64,000 nt of DNA from a virus: IMG/VR virus record IMGVR_UViG_3300042465_007464, positions 1 to 64,000 of that record; one strand, 5' to 3'. Shown one piece after another: positions 19,315-54,041 of the stretch. The notes under the pieces were generated by a model that saw nothing but the letters and a program-made list of their open reading frames with translations, searched no databases and was not told where the DNA came from. Every line of letters starts with the position of its first letter. Positions within the stretch are counted from its first letter, which is position 1. The position numbers and the translations under genes were made by a program.

Positions 19315-19324
19315 GATTTACTCC

Positions 19325-26714: not shown

Positions 26715-28070
26715 CTATGGTTTCTTTAATTTATTCAATGCATCAAAAACTTTTGTTCGTGTATCTATTTCATTACTAGTTAATGGATTTGTTAATGAAT
26801 CGCTTAACCAATTTCGATTTCCTTGTTTTGGATCGGTAGTTGTTAATACTTTTTCGTCTGCCAATGTATAGAAACGTCCGTTTTTCTGTGGTAAATAATC
26901 CATGATTGGCGTTAATCCTAATGATACGGAAACTTTATGTGGCACTTGCATCATCTCTGGATCTTGTTCTATGTTAATTTCCCAAGTCGTATCCGAATCT
27001 AGCAATGTATATGATAAACTAGTTATGATAGCTGGTTGATGCACAAACAAATCTCCAATTGTTATACGCATCCATGGTGCTTTCATTGCAATGGTTTGTG
27101 TATCATATTCTGGTGCAGTATATCCGGCAAGTGCATTTAATTTACGAAATATTGGTTTTAATTCATCTCGATCTGATGCGTATACTACAAAATCTAATTG
27201 AACGTCTCGTCCATAACCCGTATAATGATAATTTGGATCAGCACGACCAATCATTGTTACTGGCGACCAATTTGGCGAAAATGTATCGGAAAGTGAATTA
27301 ATAATTGCGCGAAATACTATTACATCATCTTTTGTAGTTTCTGGAGCTGCATTTGCTAATTTAGGTCCGGTAAAATAAAATTTAATGAAATCTTGCGTAA
27401 TGCCAAACTTGTCAAATAAATTCATACCCAACGCTTCCGGTTTCCAACGATAAATATTCTTACGAGTTCTTTGTCCGAAATCGATTACATTGACTTTATC
27501 TCCGCGGAATGGCGTAGCAAGTGCTAATGGATTTCTAGTTTGTTTCCATTTACCATCGCGCCATTGTGTGGACACATGACTCATTGCCGTAAAGTCTCGA
27601 CGCAACGCATACGGATTATCATGATCTCCTAATCCGAATCCGGTTTTACCAACACCATCTAAATTAAATACACTATATGGTCCGGTTGGTGCGGCTGATG
27701 CAGCTGCATATATTCCTGCAATCACACTCCCTCGAGTTACTGCACTTGCACCATCCAAACGTATTAGTTCTAAACCTTTACGTGCACGAAAATCTGGATA
27801 TTTTATGCCATTGATATCGTTGTACGAACCCAATGCAGATACTGCGTATTGTGTCTTTGGAGAATCGTTACCTAGTTCTTTTGAACTATTTGCAACTTGT
27901 GCTATCTGCGGAATTCCGGCAAATGATGAAATTGAATTAGCAAGTACTTGTTGTGCGACACCACCTCCACCAATTTGTATGTTAGTAGTGTCTGCAACTT
28001 TTGATTGCCAACCCCACCATTCTGCAGGCGAGAAACTATACGGTTTATCTTTATCATAAAGTGTTGGCAT
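26715..28070 (-). CDS. Baseplate tube initiator / tube cap protein (gp48/gp54-like)
   Basis: A 451-residue protein. The C-terminal half contains VFRAIINSLSDTFSPNWSPV, GRADPNYHYTGYGRDVQLDF and PWMRITIGDLFVHQPAIITS (about 243-350), a sequence of strands like the tail-tube fold used by tube-initiator proteins. T4 gp48 and gp54 sit on the hub and nucleate tube growth. The Gly/Ala-rich N-terminal part (about 30-140) is unlike T4. A strong ribosome binding site, AAGGAG, lies six bases before the start, and the start overlaps the tape-measure stop. Confidence 0.75.
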   Translation of the reverse strand: MPTLYDKDKPYSFSPAEWWGWQSKVADTTNIQIGGGGVAQQVLANSISSFAGIPQIAQVANSSKELGNDSPKTQYAVSALGSYNDINGIKYPDFRARKGLELIRLDGASAVTRGSVIAGIYAAASAAPTGPYSVFNLDGVGKTGFGLGDHDNPYALRRDFTAMSHVSTQWRDGKWKQTRNPLALATPFRGDKVNVIDFGQRTRKNIYRWKPEALGMNLFDKFGITQDFIKFYFTGPKLANAAPETTKDDVIVFRAIINSLSDTFSPNWSPVTMIGRADPNYHYTGYGRDVQLDFVVYASDRDELKPIFRKLNALAGYTAPEYDTQTIAMKAPWMRITIGDLFVHQPAIITSLSYTLLDSDTTWEINIEQDPEMMQVPHKVSVSLGLTPIMDYLPQKNGRFYTLADEKVLTTTDPKQGNRNWLSDSLTNPLTSNEIDTRTKVFDALNKLKKP

Positions 28071-29893
28071 CAGAATCTCCTTCTATCATTCATTTTAGTT
28101 GCCGCAAACAACATATCTTGCGTTACTTTTGCTTCTACTTTTACGTTTTGCAATGCCATAGCAATTGCTTGAGCCATTTTTCCGTAATCGATGCTACCAC
28201 CTCCGTTAATTGCACGTGCCAATTGACGATTTCCATTTACATTGGTGCCGGCAATCATAGTAGAATCATTTACTCGCATAAATTTATCATCCTGATGAAA
28301 ACGTATAACACCGTCATTCATGATAATTGCATCATCTTTTTTGGTATCTGCTTTGGTTGCTTGTACCGTTGGTGTTTCTGGTAACAATGCTTTTATATCA
28401 TTGATCCAACCAGTTATTTTGTCACCTAATAATGGTATCATGCTTGTTATCGTCGTTAAGCCATCAGCAACCGTTCTGGTTGTTTCAGAAAATGTAGATA
28501 AACTACCTACACTTTTCATAAATCCTTTGTTTCCATCAAATTGTTTTAAGAAACTCTCAAATTGTTCTCCAGCTTTTAATGTAGCTGTTCTAGTATCGGC
28601 TAAATTTATTTCAGCCATTTTAGCCGTATTTGATGCGATTTGTCTGGTTAAATCAGTTCGAATTTCTTCTGTTGTTCTCGTATCCGATGCTTGAATCAAT
28701 TCGTTTATTTTTTCATCAGATACTCCTTTTTCTCTTAATGATTTGGCAACTTCATTAAGATTACCTTCTTTCAATTCCATTAAACGCTCAGCACCCAATT
28801 CTGAAATTATTTTTTGTTTTTGTATGCTTCGTGCTAATGTCGCTTCGTCAGTACCCATTAATTCTGCAGCTTTTTTACGTGCGTATAAATTTTTCTCTAA
28901 TACAGGTCCTTGAGTTTTAATCAAATGATTCATCAATTCAGCTTGTTTGTTAGCATCACCTTGTATAGTAGCCATACGATACGCATTGGTTAAACTTTTT
29001 CCATCTTGCGTCAATAATCGTTTACCACTTAACAACTGATATTCCATTTCTTGACCAATAGATGATTCTATGTTTAATAAATTTTCACCTGCATTATTCA
29101 AGGTTTCCATGTTCATTCCAAGCATTTTAGATTTAAGAACTGCCAATTCTAATGAACCTGGAATACGACTATATTGTAATTGAAGATTTGCCGTTAAACC
29201 TCCAATGTCTTCTGTTAATTGTTTTTGTACTTGTAAACCATCTAATCCCGTTGCCTTTCCAATTGCGTCAGCCATTTCATTTTGTATAGCTAATGCTTCT
29301 ATACCAGACTTTGCAACGGACGTTGCGTAATATTCATAACCTTGTGCAGCTTCTTCCGTTATCTTAAGATTATTCTGCATATATTGTTGGCCTCGTAGTA
29401 ATTTCTTACCAAATTTATCAAAAGATTTATCATTTGCTAAAAATCCGCTAGATAAATCTTTTAATTGCAAAGCATACGCATTCATCGTTTCTTCGCCAAC
29501 TTTGGAATCTATTGCTACTTGTCGTAATTTTTTTGAAAATGCATCTGCTTTTTGAATCGATAATCCATAACCTTGCGTAACGTCTTTGAATCGATTTTCA
29601 AGAAGCGTAAGATTTTGTGTTAATTTTATAACCCCTTGAGCAAATTTATCTTGAATTGCTAATACGTTGTTAAGCCCCATTGCTAACGCAGTATGTTCAT
29701 TTACAACGCCTTCGATGGTCGAAGAATATGCAGTCCATAAAGATTTCAATTTAGGAACGGCATCTGCAGCTGTTTTTAATTCATTTTGCAAATTAATTTT
29801 TTTACCTTCCATATCATTGGCCGGGTTTTGTTGCCGACCATGGCGAGGCTGTTGTTTCAAACGTTGAATCAATGTGTCTGTTTGTTTTTGCAC
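28070..29893 (-). CDS. Tape measure protein (gp29-like)
   Basis: 607 residues, close to T4 gp29 (590). Almost wholly helical with long amphipathic stretches from about 60 to 430, and a region near 495-530 with FMKSVGSLSTFSETTRTVAD and TTITSMIPLLGDKITGWI that could insert in a membrane. It sits in the usual place between the chaperone-like pair and the tube initiator. It sets tail length and is ejected with DNA. The start is GTG at 29893, with AAAAGG eight bases before it and the late-type motif at 29909-29923. Confidence 0.87.
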   Translation of the reverse strand: MQKQTDTLIQRLKQQPRHGRQQNPANDMEGKKINLQNELKTAADAVPKLKSLWTAYSSTIEGVVNEHTALAMGLNNVLAIQDKFAQGVIKLTQNLTLLENRFKDVTQGYGLSIQKADAFSKKLRQVAIDSKVGEETMNAYALQLKDLSSGFLANDKSFDKFGKKLLRGQQYMQNNLKITEEAAQGYEYYATSVAKSGIEALAIQNEMADAIGKATGLDGLQVQKQLTEDIGGLTANLQLQYSRIPGSLELAVLKSKMLGMNMETLNNAGENLLNIESSIGQEMEYQLLSGKRLLTQDGKSLTNAYRMATIQGDANKQAELMNHLIKTQGPVLEKNLYARKKAAELMGTDEATLARSIQKQKIISELGAERLMELKEGNLNEVAKSLREKGVSDEKINELIQASDTRTTEEIRTDLTRQIASNTAKMAEINLADTRTATLKAGEQFESFLKQFDGNKGFMKSVGSLSTFSETTRTVADGLTTITSMIPLLGDKITGWINDIKALLPETPTVQATKADTKKDDAIIMNDGVIRFHQDDKFMRVNDSTMIAGTNVNGNRQLARAINGGGSIDYGKMAQAIAMALQNVKVEAKVTQDMLFAATKMNDRRRF

Positions 29894-31662: not shown

Positions 31663-34128
31663 TTATTGTGGGAATTCGGCACCTGTCGGTTGAATGTTGA
31701 AATCCAAAATAATGAATTCAGCCGTACGAGTCGGTTGCAAGAATAATTGTCCGTACAAGATATTTTGATCTATCAAATCCGGAGTATTATTTGATTCATC
31801 CATTACTACTCGGAACGCATAAAGACCTTGATTAGATTTTACTTGATCCAAATATGGATTAACTATGCTAACGAATCTTTGACGAGTTGCTGATACATTT
31901 TGTTCAAATACCAAATAACGTGTCGCACTTGCAATGTATTTTTTAACCGTAATTAACAATCGACGTACATTTACTCGATCCAATGCAGATTTATTGCCTT
32001 GAAGCGTTTTTTGACCCCAAACAACTACACCCTCATTAGGGAATGATGCAATTGGATTAATACGTGCTTCATACAATGTATCACGCATTGCTTGTGATAA
32101 GTTTATGTATGTTTGAGTTACGTTTGTTAAACCTCCACGAGTCAAACCTGCAGGTGCATACCATGGAGCAGCAACACTATCATTGTATGCCAATACTCCT
32201 GGTACTACTACGCTTGGTGGAACCCATACTGGTAAATTGTTTGATGGATTCACAATTCTTACCCAAGGATAATAAGTTGCTGTGTAATTGCTATCCAACG
32301 TTGATACTTGATTAACTGCAGTTGCAATTGAATCTGTTTGTGCGTTGCTATCCATTACATAGAATGTATCTTGACGTCCTTCTGATAAATTACGTGCTGC
32401 TTCTGTTACTGACGGATGTAAGCTATCAATAATACCTGGCGTCAACAACATGTTCATATCATAATAATCTGTATTAGCTAACAAGTTGAATGCAGTTTGA
32501 TATGCCGTTGTACCTGCAGCATCGATATCTGTACAGTCAAATCCGAATGTATTAGCAGCAGTTATGTATTGTCCTGAAAATTTAGGAGTGTTTGGAGCTG
32601 AACCATCAAATCCTCCTTGGAATGGAACAATGAATTTACGAGTATCTAATGCAACATTTGCAGTGAATGAACCGGAATCTAACGCTCCACCAAGAGAACC
32701 TGTATATGGTGCTGTTGTTGAAGGATAACCAGCTTGTTTATTTTGACTACGATCACCTAAATAAAATGCGCTACCGCGGGTTGTTGAACCTGAATCTGGA
32801 ATTGGAGATAAATATGCTAAGTTATATCTTGCACTCGTATTATCAAATGCAAATCCAAAATAGTTATTAGGACTATATGTATTGCTACGTACTTGACTCG
32901 TATAATATGAAGGTGCAGTCCATCCAGCAGATATAGATCCAGATGCAGTTACATTTGGAATTGGTGCATATAATGCAGCGTGCCCAAACGGAATCAATGT
33001 TTTATCATTAGTGCGATTTGTAACTGCTTTAGTTACTTCAACACGAATAAAATTAGATAGATTTTCATAATCGCCGTTAACTACAACATCACCCGCAGAT
33101 GTAATTGTTCTATAACGATCACCAATTTTTTTCACTATGTAGTTTGATGATAATGGATTCAAATTACAATTTGTAAACGTTTCAACTACTTCAGGTTGTT
33201 TATCAGTATCAGCCGATTTATATGGAGAATTTGGAATATTTGTAGTATTAACTCTACGTACAACTACCGTAAAATCTCCATATCCTTGTGGATCTCCCGT
33301 TTCTGTGCTAGTACGAATATCACGTATTCCTACTTTTACTTCATGACTAACTGATGTACCATGTGATAATGTATGAAAACGGAACAAATCTTTAGTTACG
33401 GTACCAATCTGTTGTGACGTAATCCAAGGAGTTGTTGCATATTGATATGTAGTAGAAAAATCATATGTTGGTATGATTGCTAATGACATTGTCATTTGGC
33501 TGTAATTTGCAAATGAAAGATTTGCATCATACTGTGCATATACTGGGAAATCAATTGATTTCGGTGATGATCCAAATAACTTGGATACATATTGATTACT
33601 CGATGGATTAATTGAACATGTAAAGCCTTTACCTTCACCAATCGTCCAAGAACCGTCCCACCCTAATGCATCTGTTGCACCTAATGCAGTAAATGAACCA
33701 GATAATGTTAATGTAAATGATCCACTACCTAAATTTTGTAAACTAGAAGATTCAAATCCAGTTCCAGATACAACTTGCGTTGGATGTAATACGTGTGTTA
33801 CATATGAAGTAGAACCAGTTTTAGCAACTACGGCTAATACTCCATTTGTTAAAGAATATCCTGTTGAATTCAAAATACGCGTAACTGTCATTGCAGTTCC
33901 ACCATTTTTAAAATAATCAGCTACAACAAATGGAACGTACGATTCATCCGTATAAGATCCATATATTCTTGTAAATTCTTCATAAGACCTAACTGTTGTA
34001 GGTATAAATGCAGGACCTTTTACGGTCGGTCCTACGATTGCTGCACCAATTGATTGAATTGCTGCGGGTAATTGCGATTGGTCAATCTCACGTGTAAATA
34101 CGCCAGGTGACACTATTCTTTCTGCCAT
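31663..34128 (-). CDS. Tail sheath protein (gp18-like)
   Basis: The 821-residue sheath is larger than T4 gp18 (659). The N-terminus SPGVFTREIDQSQLPAAIQS (7-26) is the classic sheath start. The C-terminal domain has EGVVVWGQKTLQGNKSALDRVNVRRLL (in two blocks near 695-725), YIASATRYLVFEQN and YAFRVVMDESNN, which make up the inner sheath fold that embraces the tube. The long Ser/Thr/Gly-rich insertion (about 110-500) probably faces outward. It contracts to drive the tube. A strong AAGGAG lies seven bases before the ATG, with a late-type motif upstream. Confidence 0.95.
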   Translation of the reverse strand: MAERIVSPGVFTREIDQSQLPAAIQSIGAAIVGPTVKGPAFIPTTVRSYEEFTRIYGSYTDESYVPFVVADYFKNGGTAMTVTRILNSTGYSLTNGVLAVVAKTGSTSYVTHVLHPTQVVSGTGFESSSLQNLGSGSFTLTLSGSFTALGATDALGWDGSWTIGEGKGFTCSINPSSNQYVSKLFGSSPKSIDFPVYAQYDANLSFANYSQMTMSLAIIPTYDFSTTYQYATTPWITSQQIGTVTKDLFRFHTLSHGTSVSHEVKVGIRDIRTSTETGDPQGYGDFTVVVRRVNTTNIPNSPYKSADTDKQPEVVETFTNCNLNPLSSNYIVKKIGDRYRTITSAGDVVVNGDYENLSNFIRVEVTKAVTNRTNDKTLIPFGHAALYAPIPNVTASGSISAGWTAPSYYTSQVRSNTYSPNNYFGFAFDNTSARYNLAYLSPIPDSGSTTRGSAFYLGDRSQNKQAGYPSTTAPYTGSLGGALDSGSFTANVALDTRKFIVPFQGGFDGSAPNTPKFSGQYITAANTFGFDCTDIDAAGTTAYQTAFNLLANTDYYDMNMLLTPGIIDSLHPSVTEAARNLSEGRQDTFYVMDSNAQTDSIATAVNQVSTLDSNYTATYYPWVRIVNPSNNLPVWVPPSVVVPGVLAYNDSVAAPWYAPAGLTRGGLTNVTQTYINLSQAMRDTLYEARINPIASFPNEGVVVWGQKTLQGNKSALDRVNVRRLLITVKKYIASATRYLVFEQNVSATRQRFVSIVNPYLDQVKSNQGLYAFRVVMDESNNTPDLIDQNILYGQLFLQPTRTAEFIILDFNIQPTGAEFPQ

Positions 34129-34150
34129 TAATATACTCCTTGTTTCTTTT

Positions 34151-39424: not shown

Positions 39425-40633
39425 TTATGCCCACCTTCCATTAATAATTATCGTATCGGTGGAATCTATGGTGTAACCTAATGTTGAAGTATCAAACACG
39501 ATGCTTTGTGTCGTTGTGGTTGGAGTCCATGTGTAAACTGCTTTATCTATGTATTGTCCGTTAATGTATACGTTGAATTCGTTTTTAGTTGCAGCTGCTC
39601 CAGTAACTGGATTTGTTGCTGCAGCTGTGGAAACAGTAACAGTTGTTGATGTTGACCACGTTGCAATTTGATCCGACAATTCGGTTAAATATGATAAAGT
39701 TGCCGCATCTAATGTTCCTGTCGTTGCGCCAGTAACCCGTATCGTCTGTGCAGTACTTGCAATTCGCAATATTGGTGCAGGTACCGTGGTCGTGCTAAAT
39801 AAGTCTACATCTACATCTACAACTGAATCAAATGTTAATTTTTTAACTGAATACATTTTTTTAAGAGTTGATATGCGACTTTCTTGTGCGGATAATAAAG
39901 TACCTTGCACCGTTAATGGTACTGTAGCACGAACCAAACGATCTTCTCCAACCGTGTTTACGGTTTCAAATGAAAATTGTCCTATCGCCGTTGGAAATTT
40001 ATTTCCTTCATTACCCCAAGAAAAACGTCCATATGGTAATATTTGATCTACTAATGCGTTCATTTGTGTGGAAAAATCACACCATAACATCATTTCATAT
40101 TCAACAGTTACATATTTAGGAATATCAATTACGTATATTTTTTCCGATGATTGTGGTTGATTTGTTGGTATTGGAAACAATTCATCTTCATATTGATTGC
40201 GTTTGTTGTAACGTGCTTTATGTGTAAGATAGTTTCCCGTTTGTGGACGATTAACATCCAACGTACGTTGCGTATCTCGTTCCATTACACTGCCTCGTTT
40301 CAACATGATAACGGGAGATTGCAACATTCCTTTTTCATCTCGCAAATAACCTAAACGTCGTACGTTATCCCATTTTTCTCCGTTTGCAAAAATAACAGGT
40401 ACTGGTATGATTTCTTTGTTTGATTCGATTTGCGGACGTATTTCATTGTCTACGTACCATTTAATAGCATAATCAATATCATAAACCGTACGTTGTTTGG
40501 TACGAATCACATCGTCATCTCGTCGAGTTTGCATCGATCGATTCAACAATTGATCTGGAGTCAATCCTTCCGTTGTAGTAGGATTGGGTTTGTTAGTTTT
40601 ACGATCGATATTTTCTCTATTAAACTTTGGCAT
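39425..40633 (-). CDS. Tail completion / sheath-terminator-like protein (gp15-like)
   Basis: A 402-residue protein. The central part has YVIDIPKYVTVEYEMMLWCD (178-197), PYGRFSWGNEGNKFPTAIGQF and ETVNTVGEDRLVRATVPLTV (about 235-254), a pattern like the tail terminator gp15 of T4-like phages. The C-terminal 110 residues are a Thr-rich beta domain ending in TIDSTDTIIINGRWA, which may be an added Ig-like fold. It follows the two neck genes in the expected order. The gp15 role is likely but not certain. Confidence 0.65.
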   Translation of the reverse strand: MPKFNRENIDRKTNKPNPTTTEGLTPDQLLNRSMQTRRDDDVIRTKQRTVYDIDYAIKWYVDNEIRPQIESNKEIIPVPVIFANGEKWDNVRRLGYLRDEKGMLQSPVIMLKRGSVMERDTQRTLDVNRPQTGNYLTHKARYNKRNQYEDELFPIPTNQPQSSEKIYVIDIPKYVTVEYEMMLWCDFSTQMNALVDQILPYGRFSWGNEGNKFPTAIGQFSFETVNTVGEDRLVRATVPLTVQGTLLSAQESRISTLKKMYSVKKLTFDSVVDVDVDLFSTTTVPAPILRIASTAQTIRVTGATTGTLDAATLSYLTELSDQIATWSTSTTVTVSTAAATNPVTGAAATKNEFNVYINGQYIDKAVYTWTPTTTTQSIVFDTSTLGYTIDSTDTIIINGRWA

Positions 40634-41154
40634 TAATGTCCTTTATATGCAGGCGAATTATTATTACCACCGCGTCGAATATTTGTTATACCTTGTGGAG
40701 TTTGTCGTGTTGCATGTGCGTCACATACTACAGAAACACTGTAACCATGTTGCGAACCATTTGGCCACGTTTCTGGATTTTTTCCAGCAAAGTATTGATT
40801 CGCATCAACATTGTCTAATTCGTAGTATTCATTATCCCAAAATACAATGTCCCCAACTTCTGGAAAGAAATCTGCAGTTTCTAATGTATCGCGTGACAAC
40901 GCAAATTGTGCTGTACGCGTATATGAATGACCGTAATCATCCATTGTTGCAGTTTTAGTTTCTTTGGTAATCAAACAAGGTATTATGATTGAATCATAAT
41001 ATGATTTAGTTTCGGATTCTCCGTAAATGTTTGAGTTACTAGATTCTACAATTAATTTAAAAAATTCAATTTCAGTATCTACAACCGCATTCATCAATTC
41101 CGAATTGATTGCGGCTAAAAAGCGTGCATCTCTAATCCCTCCAAAAAGTGCCAT
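40633..41154 (-). CDS. Neck protein (gp14-like)
   Basis: A 173-residue protein. FFPEVGDIVFWDNEYYELDN (103-122) followed by DANQYFAGKNPETWP matches the pattern in T4-like neck gp14 proteins, where a GDxVxxxxxxxYEI strand occurs. It is shorter than T4 gp14 (256). With the upstream protein it probably forms the collar that seals the filled head and joins it to the tail. A strong AAAGGAG lies seven bases before the ATG. The end shares a base with the next gene. Confidence 0.72.
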   Translation of the reverse strand: MALFGGIRDARFLAAINSELMNAVVDTEIEFFKLIVESSNSNIYGESETKSYYDSIIIPCLITKETKTATMDDYGHSYTRTAQFALSRDTLETADFFPEVGDIVFWDNEYYELDNVDANQYFAGKNPETWPNGSQHGYSVSVVCDAHATRQTPQGITNIRRGGNNNSPAYKGH

Positions 41155-41166
41155 ATCTGTTCTCCT

Positions 41167-42390
41167 TTATCCAACATAAATTTTTAATGGAACCTTTGCA
41201 AGAATTTCATTCATCTGAGTTGCTTCTGCATTTTGTCTCGTTAACATTTGTTCTTTTGTGAGTTTATCTAAAAATTCACGAAGTTGTGCAATTAAAGTTT
41301 CTTTTTCACTTTGTCCTTGCGATACTAATTCTGAACCGTTAAGTGTTACTTCTGCTCCTGGTATAGGAACTGATGAATATTTGTTGCGGACAAAGCCTAA
41401 CATTTCTTTTGCAATTGCCGCGCCATATTTAATAATCCACGCACGCCCCATATCATTAATTGTACTGTATGTTTGATACGTGTATGGTATATTTGATGCG
41501 TCACTAACAACATTGTTTACAAGTGCCGTATTACCAAATAACAAGGCATCATTATTTTTTTCATCTTCTAATATGTATTCAACCCAAACTTGTCCGTAGA
41601 ATATACTAGATGCAGAAGAACCTGTACCTGCAGTTGGTATTGGCCAAAATTTAATATCATCACCGTGCAATTCAAATGTGTAATGTGACTTACGTATTTG
41701 ATCGTTAAATTCAATTGCTTGTAGTCTAAACAAATCTGCATGTATTGGCATCATCATGAAACTAATTGATGGCGAAAATCCACCAAAGTTAAATGAATCT
41801 AACAATTGTTGCGAACCTAAACCAGTACCAACAAATGGATCAAAATAACGAACGATTGCTGGAGGTGGATTATGAAGTACTCGTTTAACTTCAATTGCAC
41901 TCCCTGATACGTTTACTCCTGATGCAGATACTGCAGTTTTCAAACTATATGTTTGTTGACCCGGTACCATATCGATTTTGACTTTACGCCATGCAACAGT
42001 ACCACCCGAATCAGCTTCAGTACCATATGCCTTTGAAAGGCGCGTAATATATCCGAATGAATTTCCAACTACATGATCCGTAAAACTAGAACCAGATAAT
42101 GCACCCGTATTAGTTTTTATTCCTAACGTATTCATCAAGTTGTTAACAATATTAACTTGATTAATTTGATTGGAATATTCCATTACCGCAGCTTCAAATG
42201 CTGTATAGAAATTTATAGCCTGGAGTTCAACATCCATTATAGGATAACCTACATGTTGTGCAGCATATTTTGCAAATGAATCTGCATGACGTTGAAACAA
42301 TGGATCACTATCAAAATGACCAAACGGCGTAGATCCTGTTGTAAATGAAGAAGAACCTGACCAAATCGGCTTGTTTTGTGAATAATCCAT
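41167..42390 (-). CDS. Neck protein (gp13-like)
   Basis: A 407-residue protein with a helical N-terminal region (FAKYAAQHVGYPIMDVELQA, 39-58, then FYTAFEAAVMEYSNQINQVN) and a central beta region near YTFELHGDDIKFWPIPTAGT. The C-terminal helical part is Gln/Glu-rich. Position just before the gp14-like gene and size near T4 gp13 (309) favour a head-completion role. Residue-level evidence is weak. A late-type motif at 42403-42417 and AAAGGA precede the ATG. Confidence 0.65.
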   Translation of the reverse strand: MDYSQNKPIWSGSSSFTTGSTPFGHFDSDPLFQRHADSFAKYAAQHVGYPIMDVELQAINFYTAFEAAVMEYSNQINQVNIVNNLMNTLGIKTNTGALSGSSFTDHVVGNSFGYITRLSKAYGTEADSGGTVAWRKVKIDMVPGQQTYSLKTAVSASGVNVSGSAIEVKRVLHNPPPAIVRYFDPFVGTGLGSQQLLDSFNFGGFSPSISFMMMPIHADLFRLQAIEFNDQIRKSHYTFELHGDDIKFWPIPTAGTGSSASSIFYGQVWVEYILEDEKNNDALLFGNTALVNNVVSDASNIPYTYQTYSTINDMGRAWIIKYGAAIAKEMLGFVRNKYSSVPIPGAEVTLNGSELVSQGQSEKETLIAQLREFLDKLTKEQMLTRQNAEATQMNEILAKVPLKIYVG

Positions 42391-43479: not shown

Positions 43480-45174
43480 TTAAAGAACGTTAAGACCGTG
43501 TACGTATACTTTTCCGTAGAATTCTGAACGAACAACTTTCTTCGCGTAACGTGTCATAACACCTTTACGTGGAGTGAAGTTAACTGGATCATATACTAAT
43601 GGTGTCATAATCAATGGAATGTATGGACTAAATACAGCACCCGTTTCTAGGAACTGTGCTCCACGGAATCCCATTAAGATTACGTTTTCTAACATGTATG
43701 GGTTTTTGTATACTGTGTAACGGTTATTGATTGAACCAATTTTTTGTACACCTGCCGCAAATTCCATTTTAGTTCCATCTGTGTCAGCAGCAAATCCTGG
43801 GATAGACTCAAGAATAGTTGCAACTGCTGGAGAAGTTACTAGGAAGTTAGCACCACCACGCAATGTTTTTTGGTGGATTTTGTTTGATACTTTTTGTAAT
43901 TTAGTGCCAAGTGTTTGGAACCAACCACCTTGAGTGTTGTAGTATCCATCACCTGAAGTACTAACACCACCACCTGCAGTAGCTTGAGTAAATCCTGAAC
44001 CATTCCAGAAGTTATTGTTCAATGCTGACCAATATTCAACTGTTGGTGCTGCAGCAATCAACATATCTAAGATTTCCAAATCAATTTCCATGGAAACATA
44101 CTCAGAAAGCATTGAAGTTAATTCAGCTTCAGCATCAATTGAATGGTAAGCATTTAAGTCTTGTGCGAACTCTGGAGTCCATACTGCTTTCAACTTACGT
44201 GTTTTAGCAACGATTGGTTCAGATTGCATTTCCAAGTTAATTTCTGGAATGTCAATATCAACACCGGTATTGATACCCGAATTCGCAGATGACCCTCGGA
44301 ATGGGTTAGCATCTTCAAAATCACCACGAGTGATATCAGTTGGTTGTTTGCTATAATTCAATTTGAAGTTTGTTCCTGCACTAATTGCCGTTTGAATAGC
44401 CGTTGCTTGTGCCGTTGTTACAATGAATGATGCAGTGTAATTGCTTGTAATTGTTGAGAATGCCTGAACTGGAATGATTTCGTCACCTGCAGAACCTGAA
44501 GCAAATGTCCAAGAACGAACTGCATATAAATCAGCATCAGTTGGTACATTGATAGTTACTTTTTTATAGCTTGATAATGATGCTGAATATACGCTATCAT
44601 AATTAACAAGGCCAGCATCTGTCAATGTACCAGCACCAGAACCTGTGTTAGCAGATGTGGATGTTAATGCTGCGGATGATGTGTTGTTGATTGAATAACC
44701 GAAACGACCTGCACCGTAAAGACCACCTGCTGCATCTGAACCAGTTGTAGTAACACCAAACATTGAGTCAGTTGCGTTAGGATTACCAAACGGATCACCA
44801 GTTCTGCTGTTGTTATCTGCATCAAATCCTGGTTGAGCCGTACCGTATTTAAAGTCTAAGTAAAAAATTAGACCCGATGGCAAATTCATTGGTTGAACTG
44901 ATACGAATTCTTTTGCTGCAAATTCAGCAAAGATACGACGTACCAATGGAAGAGCTACACCATTCCATTCTTCAGATCCAGCTGTTGTACCTGTTGAAGT
45001 TGCTTCTTTTACTAATTGACGTGCTTGGTTTTCAAGCAATTGCGCCATACCTGCTTTTTCAGTCTCTGTACGAAGACCTTCTAACAAACCTGTTTTCTCC
45101 CATTTATTAACGATAGCTTTTGCTGCGTTTCTTTGGTTGAAATCGTTTGTACTTAATAAATTTGAAATATCCAT
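43480..45174 (-). CDS. Major capsid protein (gp23-like)
   Basis: 564 residues, near T4 gp23 (521). LPLVRRIFAEFAAKEFVSVQ (76-95) and MNLPSGLIFYLDFKYG mark the start of the HK97 fold. KLKAVWTPEFAQDLNAYHSI (about 327-346) and EAELTSMLSEYVSMEIDLEI are the long-helix and spine region, and RKGVMTRYAKKVV near the end is the usual closing strand. The N-terminal 70 residues are probably removed by the prohead protease, as in T4. The gene directly follows the scaffold and shares its transcript. AAAAAAGGA precedes the ATG. Confidence 0.95.
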   Translation of the reverse strand: MDISNLLSTNDFNQRNAAKAIVNKWEKTGLLEGLRTETEKAGMAQLLENQARQLVKEATSTGTTAGSEEWNGVALPLVRRIFAEFAAKEFVSVQPMNLPSGLIFYLDFKYGTAQPGFDADNNSRTGDPFGNPNATDSMFGVTTTGSDAAGGLYGAGRFGYSINNTSSAALTSTSANTGSGAGTLTDAGLVNYDSVYSASLSSYKKVTINVPTDADLYAVRSWTFASGSAGDEIIPVQAFSTITSNYTASFIVTTAQATAIQTAISAGTNFKLNYSKQPTDITRGDFEDANPFRGSSANSGINTGVDIDIPEINLEMQSEPIVAKTRKLKAVWTPEFAQDLNAYHSIDAEAELTSMLSEYVSMEIDLEILDMLIAAAPTVEYWSALNNNFWNGSGFTQATAGGGVSTSGDGYYNTQGGWFQTLGTKLQKVSNKIHQKTLRGGANFLVTSPAVATILESIPGFAADTDGTKMEFAAGVQKIGSINNRYTVYKNPYMLENVILMGFRGAQFLETGAVFSPYIPLIMTPLVYDPVNFTPRKGVMTRYAKKVVRSEFYGKVYVHGLNVL

Positions 45175-45196: not shown

Positions 45197-46204
45197 TTAT
45201 AGCAATCCTGCTAATTTTTTCCAACGATTAGCTAATTCAAATCCTTCTGACAATACTTGAGTAGTTTCTTTCTTAGGAGCCGTTGATGCAGCTGGTTTAG
45301 ATGCATATGATTCTTTAACTACGCGTTTTTTAGTTGGACGGTTGAATGATTCAGCCAATGTACTAAATACTAATTTTACTTCTCTTGTGTTACCAGCACG
45401 ATCAAATCCTTCAATCACTTTCATTTTTTGACCTTCTGATAAATCAAAATTGCGGAACAATTTGTTTGTGTAAAGAAGTTTTGCGTTTAGAAGATTTACT
45501 TCGTTGATGATGCTTTTCAATTCTCGAACTGTTTTGTAAGCTTCTTCAAGTTGCTCGTTTGCCATCTTAAGTTCGTCACCATGAGTTCCTTCATGACCAG
45601 CATCTTGCATTTCTTCTAATTCTTCTTCCTCTTCTTCTTCACGTAGAATTGATTCAATGATTTCGTCGATGTTGAAGTCTTCAGCTAATTCGTCATCCTT
45701 AGGCATATCATAACCTTCAGTTGCCATGTCTTCTTCCATGTCTTCTTCTTCATTAAGATCGCCTTCTAATTCACGAATAATCGCTTCAAGATTCAAATCT
45801 TCATTGTACTCGTCAGCCATTTCTTCATCTGATACAGGTGCTTCTTCTTCACCTTCCATTCCAGCTTCAGCTCCTGGCTCTTCTTGAGAAAATATGTCGA
45901 ATTCATCAAATTCTCCGTCATTGTTAACGTCAATTGATAAATCACCAACATCTTCTCCAGCACCCATGTCGCCTTCCATTCCTGCATCCATACCTGCTTC
46001 AGCACCCATGTCCATGTCATCCATAGCTGGTTCTTCTGCTGGCATTTCTTCGTCTTCTACTTCATTTGTTAACTGAGTTGCTAACATTCTTTCAAGACGA
46101 GGAGCGAAAGCTTCTTGTAGTGCAATTTTTGCGTTTGCTAATGCTGTTTCTTTAACGGCACGTGCATCGGCGATTGCTTCTTTTAGCAAATCTGATTTTG
46201 CCAT
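45197..46204 (-). CDS. Prohead core scaffold protein (gp22-like)
   Basis: A 335-residue, strongly acidic protein with repeated Glu/Asp/Met blocks from about 45 to 215 (EEDMEEDMATEGYDM and EDFNIDEIIESILREEEEEE) and a helical basic C-terminal part ending FELANRWKKLAGLL. Position between the protease region and the capsid gene, and composition, match the T4 gp22 core. This protein fills the prohead, guides shell assembly and is then degraded. DINVNNDGEFDEFDIF-like wording (actual: IDVNNDGEFDEFDIF near 91-105) resembles a calcium-binding loop. AAGGAG lies seven bases before the ATG. Confidence 0.88.
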   Translation of the reverse strand: MAKSDLLKEAIADARAVKETALANAKIALQEAFAPRLERMLATQLTNEVEDEEMPAEEPAMDDMDMGAEAGMDAGMEGDMGAGEDVGDLSIDVNNDGEFDEFDIFSQEEPGAEAGMEGEEEAPVSDEEMADEYNEDLNLEAIIRELEGDLNEEEDMEEDMATEGYDMPKDDELAEDFNIDEIIESILREEEEEEELEEMQDAGHEGTHGDELKMANEQLEEAYKTVRELKSIINEVNLLNAKLLYTNKLFRNFDLSEGQKMKVIEGFDRAGNTREVKLVFSTLAESFNRPTKKRVVKESYASKPAASTAPKKETTQVLSEGFELANRWKKLAGLL

Positions 46205-46279
46205 AAGTTTTCTCCTTAAATTTGTTTTTTGGAAATAAGATTATTTGAAATCTTAATAGAATATTTTTATTTTATAGTG

Positions 46280-46343: not shown

Positions 46344-46376
46344 AAAAAAGTCCTAACTTTTTTTAGCTAGGACTTA
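46344..46376 (-). terminator. Intrinsic terminator after bS21 gene
   Basis: Minus strand stem AAGTCCTA/TAGGACTT around an A-rich loop, then six T. It ends the protease-to-bS21 transcript. Confidence 0.9.
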
Positions 46377-46394: not shown

Positions 46395-46640
46395 TTATTT
46401 TGAGTGTTGATCTCGAACCATTTGCATGAATGCAGCTTTAATATTTTGCTGTCTGCGTTGCACACTAGGCTTAATGAATTCTCTGCGATCTTTTGTCGCT
46501 TCAAGCACTCCGGCAGATTTTACTTTGCGTTTCCATGCTTTAAGTGCATGTGCTAAATCTTCTCGTTCTGTTCCTACAACTTGTACTGCTAATGCATTAC
46601 CCGGAACAATTTGTTGATGTTGTTTTTGTTTTTTATTCAT
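46395..46640 (-). CDS. rpsU: Phage-encoded ribosomal protein bS21
   Basis: An 81-residue basic protein. ALKAWKRKVKSAGVLEATKD (31-50) followed by RREFIKPSVQRRQQNIKA (51-68) matches the bS21 signature AL(R/K)xxKRKVxxxGxL, REFxxPSxxR, in both order and spacing. bS21 sits by the 3' end of 16S rRNA, where the anti-SD lies. Phage S21 genes are known in other large and marine phages. Here it is the last gene of a head-protein transcript, right before a terminator. Its own start (ACAAGTTATATG) lacks a ribosome binding site. Confidence 0.87.
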   Translation of the reverse strand: MNKKQKQHQQIVPGNALAVQVVGTEREDLAHALKAWKRKVKSAGVLEATKDRREFIKPSVQRRQQNIKAAFMQMVRDQHSK

Positions 46641-46658
46641 ATAACTTGTTTAATAGTA

Positions 46659-47162
46659 TCAAATAGCTTCTGGTGCCGGTGCTTCTGGTTGTGGACGTTG
46701 TCCTCTTACATTGAAACGAAAATGTTTAATTTCTGGCACTTGTGCAACGTATCCTTGAATCTTTTGTGATTCGCGTCCTGGATCTTCTCCTAAACGAAAA
46801 TAGAAATATCCTACTTTACCTGATTTAGATATGTTTTGTTTAACTATAGTAAATCCTTTTCGTTCTGACCAATCTCGTATATCATTTGCAACGTTTTGTG
46901 CCATTGACGGATCTCGCAATACATATTCAACTCCTCCGCGATAATCTGCAATATGATTAACAAGTTGTGCTTCGTCTATTTCAGATTCATTAGCTGTTAT
47001 TCTAACATTACCACCGGCTTTCTTTGCAGCCACTTGTGCTGCAGTTAATGCATTTTTATCTTTTGCAACAGATGCCGCTATTTCAATATCGTTTGGATTT
47101 TGTTTAGTAGTTTGTTCTGTTATTCCGAAAAATTCTTTATATAATTTTTTTAGTGCATTCAT
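46659..47162 (-). CDS. Small head-region protein, unknown function
   Basis: 167 residues from the ATG at 47162; a start at 47195 would precede the promoter's transcription start. It begins ALKKLYKEFFGITEQTTKQ, a helical start ending I-T-E that fits cleavage by gp21-type protease. A beta-alpha region (DYRGGVEYVLRDPSMAQNVA, about 61-80) and FYFRLGEDPGRES follow. The C-terminus is Pro-rich (RPQPEAPAPEA). It lies between the protease group and bS21. Internal head protein is an inference. Confidence 0.65.
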   Translation of the reverse strand: MNALKKLYKEFFGITEQTTKQNPNDIEIAASVAKDKNALTAAQVAAKKAGGNVRITANESEIDEAQLVNHIADYRGGVEYVLRDPSMAQNVANDIRDWSERKGFTIVKQNISKSGKVGYFYFRLGEDPGRESQKIQGYVAQVPEIKHFRFNVRGQRPQPEAPAPEAI

Positions 47163-47204: not shown

Positions 47205-47594
47205 TTAATTAACATCGAAGTATTTGTTTAATCCTTGTGCGATATCTTCATATGCTGCACTTAAACGTTGTTGCAACATAGCCATTTCTTTTGCAGTTGC
47301 TTCAAATACTTTGTATGAATCGTTTAGATTTTTCATGTGACGTTTAACTGTTACACTATCAAACCAATCGCCTTTTTCCGTTGCAATTTGTTCTGCTTTG
47401 TTAATGATGTCACGTACATGATCGGTTAATTGATCTAAATCACCTTTTCCATATACCGAATCACTCATTTCAGAAAAACGTTTAACGCGTTCAACGAATG
47501 CAGCTTTTTCTTCTTTAGACAATGGTTTTGGTTGTTCGTCTAACAACGTTTCTAGTATGTATTTTAAATTTCTCATCTTTAAATTATTCTGCAT
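47205..47594 (-). CDS. Small helical head-region protein, unknown function
   Basis: 129 residues, or 123 if it starts at the ATG at 47576, just past the protease stop. It begins MRNLKYILETLLDEQPKPL, with L-D-E followed by Q as a possible protease site, and the rest is helical (HMKNLNDSYKVFEATAKEMA, about 84-103). No known domain. It lies directly behind the prohead protease and before the gene at 46659-47162. The position fits a minor head or core protein. Confidence 0.65.
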   Translation of the reverse strand: MQNNLKMRNLKYILETLLDEQPKPLSKEEKAAFVERVKRFSEMSDSVYGKGDLDQLTDHVRDIINKAEQIATEKGDWFDSVTVKRHMKNLNDSYKVFEATAKEMAMLQQRLSAAYEDIAQGLNKYFDVN

Positions 47595-48211
47595 TTACCG
47601 TCTTCGCATAAAATTGAAGTAATAAGTTCATTTACACGTGCGTATTTGTTTGTTTTAACTGTTTTATCTACTGACTCGTGCATGTGCGTAGGCCGCATAA
47701 AAGCCCCATGCGTTGAAGGATTTGATACAAAGTCCCAACATATCAATTCAAAGTCTTCTTGAACTTCAACCGTACCCTCACTGCGTAATTCTTTTACGGA
47801 ACCTAATCCACGGGATGAAATGCCTAATGTGATACCAGCTTTAAAAAGTTCTTTAAGAATTTTTCCTGACGGAGTTTCTAGTATTTGTACTGCTCCTTTT
47901 AAATCATCACCATCCCACCATATTTTTAGTACATTATGAGATACGTTGTTCAAGTTTACTACGGAAGATTCTGGATGATCCAATTCTCCTAGTGCACGAT
48001 GCTGTTGTATGAATTCTTGTTCATATCGTCTACATTCGCGTTCTAGTATGTTTCTTGGATAGATTCTACCATTTTGATTTTTTGCTCCCGCACGTTGTAA
48101 AACTCCTTGAACTACAAAACCACCAGGTATCCCATATGCAGCCCCACTCGATTCAGTAAGTGAACCAATCGGACGAAATGGCATATATTCTACTATTAGT
48201 TGTTTTGACAT
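47579..48211 (-). CDS. Prohead maturation protease (gp21-like)
   Basis: A 210-residue serine protease of the T4 gp21/herpesvirus assemblin type. NGRIYPRNILERECRRYEQE (45-64) is a family signature, the catalytic His is in GELDHPESS (73-81) and the catalytic Ser in GISSRGLGSV (about 131-140). It cleaves scaffold and capsid proteins after acidic L/I-x-E sites before packaging. Gene order portal, two unknowns, protease, scaffold, capsid follows the T4 plan, with extra genes inserted, including bS21. Confidence 0.95.
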   Translation of the reverse strand: MSKQLIVEYMPFRPIGSLTESSGAAYGIPGGFVVQGVLQRAGAKNQNGRIYPRNILERECRRYEQEFIQQHRALGELDHPESSVVNLNNVSHNVLKIWWDGDDLKGAVQILETPSGKILKELFKAGITLGISSRGLGSVKELRSEGTVEVQEDFELICWDFVSNPSTHGAFMRPTHMHESVDKTVKTNKYARVNELITSILCEDGKCRII

Positions 48212-49840: not shown

Positions 49841-51682
49841 TTACAAAATATTGTTTTCATCTAAAATAGTACCAGCGTCTTTATCAGATTCCGTTGGTAT
49901 TGCTGTTTTTAAAGATTCTGTTATTATGGATGCACCTTTATTTTTTATTTTTAAATGTTTCAATATGTTGTTATGTTCTACGGCAACTGTTGCGTTGTTT
50001 TTAAACTTCGGATCTGGCTGAAATGCTGTTTTTTGATTTTCTGGATTAAATGTTTGCTTAATAGTTTTAATACCCGTTGGATCCCATCCAAATTCATTTT
50101 GATGTTGTCCTGATTTAATTCCTTCTGGTGGACGGCCTCCTAAATCTTTTTCTTCAACGTCATCGCTGGACATGTGCATTGATGCTAAATCATGAGGTGT
50201 TCCAAATGAAACTCCCGTTATAGCAGGATCATTTCCTTCTTGTTCAATCTGATTTTGACGGAAACGAAGTTTAAGATCTTCAATAACATCAACACGTTCT
50301 TGAAGCCATTGTTCTTCGGACATATTGAATATAAACTCATAAATGTAACGATCTGAAACAAGTTTTAAATCTTTCATTGTATTTGCTAATTGAACTTTTT
50401 CATTCATTAAAGCAACTTTTTGTTGATCGTATATAATTGATGGTGCTGTTAATTCTAGTTCAAATCCAATTAAATCTTCGCCTTCAAATCCTTGTGAATA
50501 TAAATGCACTATTCCAATTTTAATAAGTTCCGATGTTACGATTTTTTGAATACGTTCGATAGTTCTGGCAAAACGAATATCCATGGATGCTAACGTAGTT
50601 TTACCTTCAACTGACTCGCTATATCCTAAAAATGGTTTAGGAATTTTAAGTGCAGCCATCATTTTATCTTTTACATATTCAATATCATCCATTCCGGTAA
50701 ATGTCATACCTGGTAATGTATCAATTGTAGTAGAAGACTGACCCCCGCGTACTGGCAAATAATAATCTTCTAACATGTTGTTAAGATTGAATCTCATGTT
50801 GTAATTTCCAGTTTGCGGATCGATGTGTGGAATTTTTTTCATTTTATTGATAATCTGTTCCATGAAATTATCAACTTCATTTGGTGGAATATTACCAATA
50901 TCAATTTTAAAGATTCGTTTTTCTGGTGCACGCATTATACGATGAATAAGCATTGCATCTTCTAACATCATTAATTTTTGAAATTCTTTACGTGCTCCTT
51001 CTAACATAGATCTACCGTACGGTAAAAAGTTTGAATCCGACAACATACGGAAATGTGCTATTTCAAACACATCATATGTCATTTGTTCTGACGCAATATT
51101 TTTAAATTTAATATCATATTCACCCGTCGCTTCATTATATTCTTCCCAACGTTCCATTTCATAACTAGAAAATGGACGTGCATTAACTACTCCGTAAGTG
51201 TCTGCGATATCTAATTTCAAAAAGAAATCACCGTATTTGGTCATGTTGCGTATCCACGTCCACAAATTGAATTCAATGTTCAATACATCATAAAACAAGT
51301 TATAAAGTATTTTTTGAATTTGCGTGTTATTAGTTTTGATTGTAAGTATATCTCCGAATTGATCTGCTAATGTAGATTCATCTGAATAAATATCTAAGGC
51401 AGAAGATATGATTGGATCTTTATCCATCATTTCGTAGTCAGCATATAACTGCATACGATTTTGGTGCATATAATAATTAGAATCATATCCACCCATACCA
51501 CCGACACGGTGTTTGTTTGCACCATGCAGTCGAGTATATCGATCTGCAATTTTACTTTGTGCTAAATTACCAGAACCTTGTAGACGATTTGTATCTACTA
51601 CACGTACCTGATCTTTCCCATATGCCCGAACAATTACGTTGGTGCTAAATAGGTTCTGTAAACGTTTTCTTAATGACGCCAT
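49841..51682 (-). CDS. Portal protein (gp20-like)
   Basis: A 613-residue protein. SNYYMHQNRMQLYADYEMMD (68-87), KDPIISSALDIYSDESTLAD (88-107) and WTWIRNMTKYGDFFLKLDI mark the gp20 family. RIMRAPEKRIFKIDIGNIPP (about 251-270) and the long helix region after LGYSESVEGKTTLASMDIRF are typical. It is larger than T4 gp20 (524) through an extended C-terminus. Twelve copies form the DNA channel at one head vertex and dock the terminase encoded directly upstream. A late-type motif lies ten bases before the ATG. Confidence 0.95.
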   Translation of the reverse strand: MASLRKRLQNLFSTNVIVRAYGKDQVRVVDTNRLQGSGNLAQSKIADRYTRLHGANKHRVGGMGGYDSNYYMHQNRMQLYADYEMMDKDPIISSALDIYSDESTLADQFGDILTIKTNNTQIQKILYNLFYDVLNIEFNLWTWIRNMTKYGDFFLKLDIADTYGVVNARPFSSYEMERWEEYNEATGEYDIKFKNIASEQMTYDVFEIAHFRMLSDSNFLPYGRSMLEGARKEFQKLMMLEDAMLIHRIMRAPEKRIFKIDIGNIPPNEVDNFMEQIINKMKKIPHIDPQTGNYNMRFNLNNMLEDYYLPVRGGQSSTTIDTLPGMTFTGMDDIEYVKDKMMAALKIPKPFLGYSESVEGKTTLASMDIRFARTIERIQKIVTSELIKIGIVHLYSQGFEGEDLIGFELELTAPSIIYDQQKVALMNEKVQLANTMKDLKLVSDRYIYEFIFNMSEEQWLQERVDVIEDLKLRFRQNQIEQEGNDPAITGVSFGTPHDLASMHMSSDDVEEKDLGGRPPEGIKSGQHQNEFGWDPTGIKTIKQTFNPENQKTAFQPDPKFKNNATVAVEHNNILKHLKIKNKGASIITESLKTAIPTESDKDAGTILDENNIL

Positions 51683-51724: not shown

Positions 51725-53305
51725 TTATTTTATCAACCAAGTTAATGATTCATCGCCTGACCCAGGATTCCAATTCCATCCATTGTCGCTGTTATTACGA
51801 TTGCCAGTATAAATAACTGGACTCGTTTTTTGAAAAGAAGATAGTGCACGTTTATTCAAATCAATACCTTGTTGACGTAATTTTAGTGCAGTATCGCGTA
51901 ACCATAATCCGATACAAAATGACATTACTAAGTCATCGTTATATCCTTGTTGTGCTTGTGCTTTACCATTAAGCCAAACAAACACTAGTAATTCTTGTAT
52001 TAAACGTCGGCTACGAATAAACGGAGTACGATCTCGCATATACATTTCAAGTGCCGATATCATTAATGGACGTGTACGTGTTGTGGTTGATACTCCCGGA
52101 ACCATTTGGCTCTTATCTTTCATATCATAACCTTTTTTCAATTGTACATCGGCATCTGTATATCCGTCATCTTTATATGTATAATGTAAGTTTTGATAGT
52201 TTCTATCAAGTGCCGGCTGAATTGCGGCCCAACCAATGTTTGCATTTTCAATAGCTAATAACGCATTGTTCCATTCCGTTGCAACCGTTACTAACATGTT
52301 TCCAAATTCATTGGGTGGAATCTTTCCTTTAAATTCTGCTACTTGTCGTACCGTTTCAACTTCTAAAACATGAAATGCAGACCAGTCACCACCATCACCC
52401 CGTGCGACGTCAGCTACTACCATGTAATCACGTGCATAGTCCGGATATTCCCAAATCCAATACGCTCCATCAAATCCACGCTTTTCAATTGGTTCTTCAC
52501 ATTTACCTTCATATTCTAAAAGCAAAGGACCATCTACTACAGTATGTCCCGATGATACGAAGTCACAGTCACATTCTTGTGCCGCACCGCGTTCGCCTAA
52601 TAACGATGTTTGTTCATTACGCCACGTTTGGTCGCGTTCTGGGTGCACATCCCAACGCAAACGAATTGTATGGAAACCGTTAATGTCCGCTTCCGCGTCT
52701 GCCCAAGTTTGGTGAAACCAGTTACCAACACCGTTCGGCGTAGATAATACAATAGCACCACCACCCGTTGATAGGGTTGCTTGCGACGCTATCCATATTT
52801 CTTCAATGTTTCGAATAAATGCAGCCTCATCAATGATTAGCAGAGACAACGCTTCTGAACGTGCTCCTGTGGTTGCTGATGAAACGGCTTTGATTTGCGA
52901 ACCATTTTTAAATTTAAGTGATAATTTGTTATCAGCTTCAACCGTACCTTTCAACCAACTTGGCAAGTTATCGTGCATCACCCGTACTTTCGTTACTAGG
53001 TTTTTTGCTACTTCTTGTGTGGTTGCAATAACTAACACGTTGAAATCTTCTTTGAACAACATGCACCAAAGTGCAAAGCCGGCAGATAGAGTTGATATAC
53101 CTAACTGCCGAGACTTTAATATTACATTGTATCGATTATCGCGAAGCTGTGTTAATGAATCTTCTTGGAATGGAAACAAATTAAATTTGATCTTACCACG
53201 TTTAGGATGTTGTATGTAACAATAATTACGCATAAAAAATACAGGATCTTTAGCACATTGCATGTACTGTTGTTGTATTATCTGCTTAATATTTTGTTGT
53301 GCCAT
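51725..53305 (-). CDS. Terminase large subunit (gp17-like)
   Basis: A 526-residue packaging motor. The Walker A-like segment is LKSRQLGIST (63-72), Walker B is LLIIDEAAFI (155-164), and the coupling motif is VLSTPNGVGNW (186-196). The nuclease domain begins at MVVADVARGDGGDWSAF (about 295) and has IENANIG and YNDDLVMS with further acidic residues. ATPase and headful nuclease should both be functional. It cuts and pumps DNA through the portal. The small terminase subunit is not identified in this window. Confidence 0.96.
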   Translation of the reverse strand: MAQQNIKQIIQQQYMQCAKDPVFFMRNYCYIQHPKRGKIKFNLFPFQEDSLTQLRDNRYNVILKSRQLGISTLSAGFALWCMLFKEDFNVLVIATTQEVAKNLVTKVRVMHDNLPSWLKGTVEADNKLSLKFKNGSQIKAVSSATTGARSEALSLLIIDEAAFIRNIEEIWIASQATLSTGGGAIVLSTPNGVGNWFHQTWADAEADINGFHTIRLRWDVHPERDQTWRNEQTSLLGERGAAQECDCDFVSSGHTVVDGPLLLEYEGKCEEPIEKRGFDGAYWIWEYPDYARDYMVVADVARGDGGDWSAFHVLEVETVRQVAEFKGKIPPNEFGNMLVTVATEWNNALLAIENANIGWAAIQPALDRNYQNLHYTYKDDGYTDADVQLKKGYDMKDKSQMVPGVSTTTRTRPLMISALEMYMRDRTPFIRSRRLIQELLVFVWLNGKAQAQQGYNDDLVMSFCIGLWLRDTALKLRQQGIDLNKRALSSFQKTSPVIYTGNRNNSDNGWNWNPGSGDESLTWLIK

Positions 53306-53307
53306 AC

Positions 53308-53682
53308 TTACTTTACAATTGTTGCAACAAATTTACCTGTTACTACTGCAGTAATGATACCTCCAGTAAACCAAATCATTTTATTGTCATACCAACGTGG
53401 TTTAAGATATTTTTCACGTTCGATGTACAATTCAACGTTTTCTTTTAACAGTTCAATTTGTTTTGATTTATATGCTAACTGCACTGAATCAATTTGTATT
53501 AGTTGTTTTTGAGATTCAATAACTCGTTCATGTTGATATATAATTTCATTGTTCAAAGAATCTAACGCGTATAACGAATCTAAGGTAAATGAAATATCAA
53601 CAATTTCTTCTTGAGTAAAACAAGTGTCAACTTGTCCGTAACTAAAAAATGGAAATAACAATATGATAAATAAACGTTTCAT
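53308..53682 (-). CDS. Secreted coiled-coil protein with C-terminal membrane helix (spanin-like candidate)
   Basis: 124 residues. An N-terminal signal peptide, RLFIILLFPFFSYGQ (3-17), has a flavobacterial look. It is followed by a long coiled coil (about 45-85), a WYDNKMIWFTGGIITAVVTG membrane segment (96-115) and a short basic tail. Signal plus coiled coil plus membrane anchor would suit a protein that spans the periplasm at lysis. No lysin or holin is recognised next to it, so this is a candidate only. It ends two bases before the terminase start. Confidence 0.6.
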   Translation of the reverse strand: MKRLFIILLFPFFSYGQVDTCFTQEEIVDISFTLDSLYALDSLNNEIIYQHERVIESQKQLIQIDSVQLAYKSKQIELLKENVELYIEREKYLKPRWYDNKMIWFTGGIITAVVTGKFVATIVK

Positions 53683-53684
53683 GA

Positions 53685-54041
53685 TTATTTTTTAGTTTTA
53701 GTATTTTTGTTATTTGGTTTACGACCTTTTTTAGTTTTGTTCAAAATATTTGCTTTCGCATCTACAACATCACGAACTTCAACTACTAAATTGTCTTTTG
53801 CTTCTTTAAGATCTTGTACTGCAGTTACTGCATCCGTAATTTGATCGTTAATTGCTTCTCGTTTTTGTTCCATAACTTCAACAGCTTCTTCAATTTTATC
53901 AATTGTGTCGTTGTTGTTTTTGATTTTATCGTTTAATTCTGATTGTTTTTTACTTTTGTTAGAATTAACTAGGTATAAAACTCCAGCAATTGCCGCAAAT
54001 ATACCTACTACTGCTGCTACGATTTTCTTAATTATTTTCAT
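53685..54041 (-). CDS. Membrane-anchored coiled-coil protein
   Basis: 118 residues. An N-terminal hydrophobic helix, IVAAVVGIFAAIAGVLYLV (7-25), is followed by a Lys/Asn-rich linker, a coiled coil with regular heptads (about 35-90) and a very basic tail rich in Lys, Asn and Thr. It may be a phage membrane protein that pairs with the secreted coiled-coil protein encoded just downstream, as two-part spanins do. That pairing is speculative. Its start overlaps the end of the 54028-54675 gene by 14 bases. Confidence 0.62.
   Translation of the reverse strand: MKIIKKIVAAVVGIFAAIAGVLYLVNSNKSKKQSELNDKIKNNNDTIDKIEEAVEVMEQKREAINDQITDAVTAVQDLKEAKDNLVVEVRDVVDAKANILNKTKKGRKPNNKNTKTKK

Follow-up and report, generated by a model that had tools for sequence, protein, structure and literature searches.

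Why should a phage carry a gene for the small ribosomal protein bS21, and what could it gain by altering the host ribosome? The question is raised by a gene in the window, by which we mean the whole stretch of 64,000 nucleotides analyzed here (positions 1 to 64,000 of the IMG/VR virus record IMGVR_UViG_3300042465_007464). In Flavobacterium johnsoniae, the anti-Shine-Dalgarno (anti-SD) sequence is held by bS21, bS18 and bS6, and Tyr54 of bS21 stacks on A1534 of the anti-SD (PMC9976891). An earlier note on this DNA had proposed that a phage bS21 that does not seal the anti-SD could favor SD-led late messages. Our comparisons suggest that the virus may indeed re-tune host ribosomes that normally ignore SDs. 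The reason why many aquatic phages carry bS21 may thus be readable at this locus, where SDs on virion genes track an extended form of the protein.

The open reading frame (46395-46640, minus strand) encodes an 81-residue bS21 (rpsU) that matches PF01165 (Ribosomal_S21) over residues 21-69 with 46.3 bits (cut-off 27, E 3.5e-12), and its best relative in the PDB is F. johnsoniae bS21 (7jil). The window gene is a variant of a kind already known. A match along nearly the whole length had been claimed; the Pfam assignment stands, although the wording is slightly generous because the first ~20 residues are a phage-specific extension outside the Pfam match. The window phage is T4-like and related to Flavobacterium phage immuto, and the location of bS21 within the head-gene block was confirmed. 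The genes for the terminase large subunit (terL, 51725-53305), the portal protein (49841-51682), the prohead protease (Peptidase_S77, 47579-48211) and the major capsid protein (MCP, 43480-45174; 56% identical to the immuto MCP) surround it, together with an SD-led gene (45197-46204) in the scaffold position, assigned by its place between bS21 and the MCP gene and without a family match. All of them lie on the minus strand, as bS21 does. The upstream neighbor (46659-47162, minus strand; 167 residues, N-terminus MNALKKLYKEFFGITEQ) has no Pfam match, and a longer open reading frame there weakly matches a PHROG of unknown function. A 129-residue protein (47205-47594, minus strand) resembles, in a by-eye sequence comparison, the product encoded just before rpsU in phage Mel-JY01. 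An intrinsic terminator with an 11-pair stem, a 6-nt loop and a T run lies 3' of bS21 (46348-46375, minus strand).

Several other features of these genomes were observed. After terL, a secreted protein (53308-53682, minus strand; ..Q..DTCFT..EI.DIS.TLDSL) and a small membrane protein (53685-54041) form a pair that is conserved across the bS21-bearing family and is perhaps a lysis pair. Comparison of orthologs shows that the signal peptide of the former ends in ..FSYG and is followed by QVDT, in line with the Bacteroidota Q-rule, by which Gln follows the signal peptide (PMC5837995). The window also carries genes for a 6-pyruvoyl tetrahydropterin synthase-like protein (9115-9591) and GTP cyclohydrolase I (12162-12869), the first steps of 7-deazaguanine synthesis and possibly a sign of DNA modification. 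Furthermore, unrelated proteins share a common N-terminus such as MIRLKxLLxE (L264: 3156-4100, 4776-5336 and 6091-6633; L265: 11163-12245, 15081-15599 and 15596-16084). In T4, internal proteins carry capsid-targeting peptides of similar appearance, and the proteins listed here may be packaged and ejected.

All of the SD sites that had been named from the sequence are present on the minus strand. The motif AAGGAG precedes the scaffold-position gene (46212-46217; duplex energy -8.2 kcal/mol), the tail sheath gene 31663-34128 (34136-34141; -7.8 kcal/mol), gene 26715-28070 (28077-28082; -9.7 kcal/mol) and uvsX, 18151-19314 (19321-19326; -7.7 kcal/mol), and AAAGGAG precedes gene 40633-41154 (41162-41168; -9.1 kcal/mol). 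Overall, 16 of the 55 window genes have AAGGA in their SD interval, whereas a mock interval contains it for 1 of 55. SD motifs precede 53% of the genes in the virion block of this phage (mock 6%), 21% in the replication and metabolism block (mock 5%) and 14% in the early block at 97-109.6 kb of the record (mock 12%). By the same method, T4, whose host uses SDs, showed them before 67% of early-block genes (20/30) and 65% of late-block genes. The early promoter form TTG-N20-TAnnTTTA is shared by the window phage with immuto and its bS21-free relatives (23 seen versus 0.8 expected). Over the family, SDs stand before 4 of 51 promoter-proximal early genes, versus 300 of 913 other genes (p 7e-5). 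Within the early block of the window phage (G000; L265 from 13500, and L266), near-identical promoters, TTGACACGCA-N10-TAnnTTTA, were seen ~50 nt before small genes, with a common leader (..AAAAAGAGAGAT-ATG) after them. The bS21 start region (46641-46665, minus strand; ..TACTATTAAACAAGTTAT-ATG) is itself SD-less, as had been noted, with a duplex energy of 0.0 kcal/mol. The start context (A)AGTTAT-ATG (GTTAT-ATG) recurs before very different bS21 genes of the clade.

SD use also differs between relatives with and without bS21. In nine bS21-bearing relatives, including the window phage, an SD motif precedes 29-48% of genes, versus 3-9% for the mock interval. The motifs are of the classic type, AAAGGA or AAGGAG placed 5-9 nt before the ATG, and moderate in strength (mean -4.5 kcal/mol; 3 of 1442 at or below -13). 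In immuto the SD is depleted (4% versus 17% mock), as it is in three other Flavobacteriia phages and in Flavobacteriia host genes (4% versus 8% mock), and crAss001 showed no SD enrichment over the mock interval. A genome-wide search found no PF01165 match in immuto or in 13 large bS21-free records. MCP scans and bS21-anchored loci together provided 274 MCP-bearing loci, near-copies included, of which 78 were too short to judge. The 148 loci with bS21 (2013 genes) use SDs before 59.7% of genes (mock 7.2%), versus 11.8% (mock 10.2%) for the 48 loci without it (701 genes). An SD frequency of at least 25% was reached by 124 of the 125 bS21-bearing loci with at least eight genes, versus 7 of 45 bS21-free loci.

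On the MCP tree, thinned to 116 rows, three changes account for the distribution of bS21, effectively a single gain plus losses in L511 and L528-L549. With roughly one gain and two to three losses behind the association, an independent-pairs test cannot reach significance. Some SDs persist in the head loci of the bS21-free subclade L528-L549, which probably switched to another host phylum. In this clade and in G028 (297 kb), which lack bS21 and are nested in the bS21-bearing clade, the signal peptides were observed to depart from the Q-rule. The comparison supports the view that, in this T4-like clade, SD use goes with the extended bS21 and is concentrated in virion genes.

The identity of the host matters for the reading of SDs, because some Bacteroidota lineages do use them. 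That the window phage infects this phylum, as it had appeared to, is supported by the identity of its MCP to that of immuto and by signal peptides with Gln at +1. This MCP is also 54% identical to that of Mel-JY01, a phage listed under Microcystis. Gln at +1 was found in 14 of 34 loosely picked candidates from the window family versus 40 of 79 in Flavobacteriia hosts, and nearly all signal peptides that look truly cleaved have it. A non-Bacteroidota host, considered from an excess of TTGACA/TATAAT, was rejected, since these motifs are the early promoters common to immuto. A cyanobacterial host, considered by way of Mel-JY01, was rejected as well, as the bS21 of that phage is Bacteroidota-like and one of its signal peptides has Gln at +1. 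The Microcystis label of Mel-JY01 (PP395634) may be wrong, perhaps owing to a xenic culture.

Within Bacteroidota, the host could belong to a lineage that already reads SDs, in which case bS21 would serve otherwise, for example by supplying a loosely held protein. In a sample of 40 genomes from across the phylum (in the GTDB sense), about 12 use SDs, and those with a readable bS21 mostly have the type with Arg at the F. johnsoniae 54 (Fj54) position. Gln at +1 occurs in their signal peptides too, so that the Q-rule does not exclude such hosts and was discarded as proof of an SD-blind one. Moreover, the Mel-JY01 bS21 is closest to this Arg54 host type (60%), and the Mel-JY01 subgroup may well infect SD-using Bacteroidota. 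However, the core of the window bS21 is nearer to the Tyr54 type of SD-blind Bacteroidia than to the Arg54 type (50.4 versus 40.8 bits), a preference also found in L003, L012, L024, L386, L424, L437 and L490. The early promoter is the one found in immuto and its bS21-free relatives, and the early genes and bS21 are SD-less, unlike the early genes of T4 on its SD-using host. We consider an SD-reading host unlikely, though a serious candidate; for the window phage, an SD-blind host would fit better with the type of its bS21, its early promoter and the lack of SDs before its early genes. Among the sampled hosts (G038, G053, G055, G068 and others), SD use seems to accompany Arg at Fj54, and SD avoidance Tyr. 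This split offers a natural experiment, among bacteria, on the seal by Tyr54.

If the host is SD-blind, which part of the phage protein would matter? The earlier note had looked to loss of the C-terminal seal, but such a loss is not obvious. Our alignments place Phe71 (codon 46428-46430, minus strand) at the position equivalent to F. johnsoniae Tyr54. This position is aromatic in all 77 complete distinct relatives (Phe in 55, Tyr in 22), so that the aromatic character of the known sealing residue is retained. As a general cause, seal loss was rejected: relatives use SDs equally often whether Fj54 is Tyr, Phe or Arg (61, 60 and 60%), and L502 (G033), which lies inside the clade, has Arg54 and a short N-terminus without SD use (12% versus mock 9%).

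What sets the phage protein apart is its N-terminal extension (codons 1-22, 46575-46640, minus strand; MNKKQKQHQQIVPGNALAVQVV), which is absent from host bS21 and adds about 17 residues before the ALK motif relative to F. johnsoniae bS21. Two scans of IMG/VR, with the full-length query and with the core only, provided 79 distinct relatives (77 complete), and all 79 carry the extension in the form M[NST]KK.[KQ]QH..(I/V).G. The core-only scan excludes that it is an artefact of the MNKKQKQH search pattern. M1, K3, K4, K6, Q7, H8, G14 and V21 are invariant in 37 aligned sequences. The AlphaFold2 model of the window bS21 (mean pLDDT 87) predicts helices at residues 3-10, 26-42, 45-52 and 58-80 and a strand at 15-19; a fold search of this model against the PDB gave no match at E 0.001. 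Host-like phage bS21s without the extension (G016-G023) accompany little or no SD use, which rules out that any bS21 brings SD use with it. Among them, G017 is an exception by motif (19% versus mock 5%), but not by energy. Over the few independent events, SD use appears to track the N-terminal extension better than loss of the aromatic residue.

Another possibility would be that the phage protein seals the anti-SD just as host bS21 does and tops up the ribosomes or resists host shut-off, a role that Chen et al. infer for jumbo-phage bS21 (PMC9723584), and that another phage factor reads the SDs. Phe71 keeps the aromatic stack, the C-terminal residues of the window bS21 are Bacteroidia-like, and the host-like phage bS21s show that the protein can be present without SD use. 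A sealing role nevertheless leaves three observations unexplained, namely that SD use tracks the extended bS21, that it is lost in lineages without the extended form, and that the extension is conserved; we hold it to be improbable. Very improbable in our judgment is neutral inheritance of the SDs from an ancestor that resembled T4 and infected an SD-using host, with bS21 linked by descent only: it fits a single large clade with few transitions and the SD use of T4, but not the SD frequency of about 60% kept across MCPs with long branches, the SD-free early genes and bS21 of the same genomes, or the avoidance of SDs by a sister clade on Bacteroidota.

The reading that we prefer is that the extended phage bS21 replaces host bS21, frees the 3' tail of the 16S rRNA and thereby favors SD-led late virion messages, a proposal that we hold with modest confidence. 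It retains the preference for SD-led late messages that the earlier note had put forward, as SD use tracks bS21 and is concentrated in virion genes, while abandoning the route through the C-terminal seal. Initially, the SD-less bS21 mRNA would be translated by unmodified, SD-blind host ribosomes. The extended protein would then probably take the place of host bS21 on the 30S platform, where the 16S 3' tail would be kept free to pair, or the SD duplex stabilized by the extension, and initiation would tilt to those virion messages that bear SDs and are made late in infection. What we infer, as opposed to the sequence features and the association themselves, is that the protein enters ribosomes and releases the anti-SD, that the extension is its active part, and when bS21 is expressed. 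The simple loss of bS21 would not suffice: F. johnsoniae ribosomes without bS21 or its C-terminus gain on strong-SD messages (McNutt 2023, PMC9976891), but in that species a truncated bS21 benefits only messages whose SDs are very strong (below -13 kcal/mol) and is harmful to those with weak ones (PMC9976891), and the phage SDs are moderate on average. The phage bS21 would therefore have to act positively.

The start of the bS21 gene itself bears on this scheme. Among 114 distinct bS21 genes, 4 are preceded by an SD, every one of them from the Mel-JY01 subgroup, with neighboring genes at 60%, and none of 116 phage bS21 genes lies at or below -9 kcal/mol. Host rpsU shows the opposite, with a mean of -17.9 kcal/mol and 74 of 80 genes at or below -13. 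Whether the extended bS21 builds a second, SD-reading class of ribosomes during infection, so that a single cell would change over time from one rule of start-site choice to another, is in our estimate an even question. If the preferred reading is true, the phage would possess a viral specialized ribosome with a defined cis signal, and start-site choice could be switched by the exchange of one small protein. The association with SD use makes the function of phage bS21 directly testable, and for a specialized ribosome of this kind the reporters already published for F. johnsoniae could serve.

That phages encode bS21, and the proposal that the protein favors phage mRNAs, have been described before (Mizuno 2019; Chen 2022). 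The protein is common in aquatic phages, and that of pelagiphage HTVC008M enters E. coli 70S ribosomes (Mizuno 2019, PMC6375957); like the window bS21 it is phage-encoded, but it is of alphaproteobacterial type and host. For Bacteroidetes jumbo phages, Chen 2022 described bS21 beside head genes with the aromatic residue at Fj Tyr54 kept, and proposed that late in infection the phage mRNAs are translated in preference to others (PMC9723584). These phages resemble the window phage in having bS21 beside terL, portal, protease and MCP genes and a Bacteroidota-type C-terminus with an aromatic residue at Fj54. They differ in that their bS21 is on the opposite strand and carries Tyr54 in 54 of 61 cases, whereas the window family has it on the same strand and mostly with Phe54. 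Their genomes measure 293-331 kb, compared with 109.6 kb for the window record, possibly a fragment, and 160-169 kb for its relatives. The window family has, in addition, the conserved N-terminal extension and SD-led virion genes, while SD use is not reported for the jumbo phages. None of the papers searched, preprints not included, describes SD use in phages with bS21, and the link described here, a strong genomic association, is apparently unreported. Microcystis phage Mel-JY01 rpsU (PP395634) shares with the window the locus order, an SD-rich genome and the N-terminal extension; unlike the window gene, it has an SD, lacks an aromatic residue at Fj54 and is closest to the bS21 of SD-using Bacteroidota. 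Finally, rpsU of Flavobacteriales hosts belongs to the same family as the window gene and has the same position stacking on the anti-SD, and there the state of host bS21 decides SD use. Host rpsU is autoregulated and typically stands alone in having a very strong SD (PMC9976891), whereas rpsU of the window family is SD-less among SD-led genes and carries the extension.
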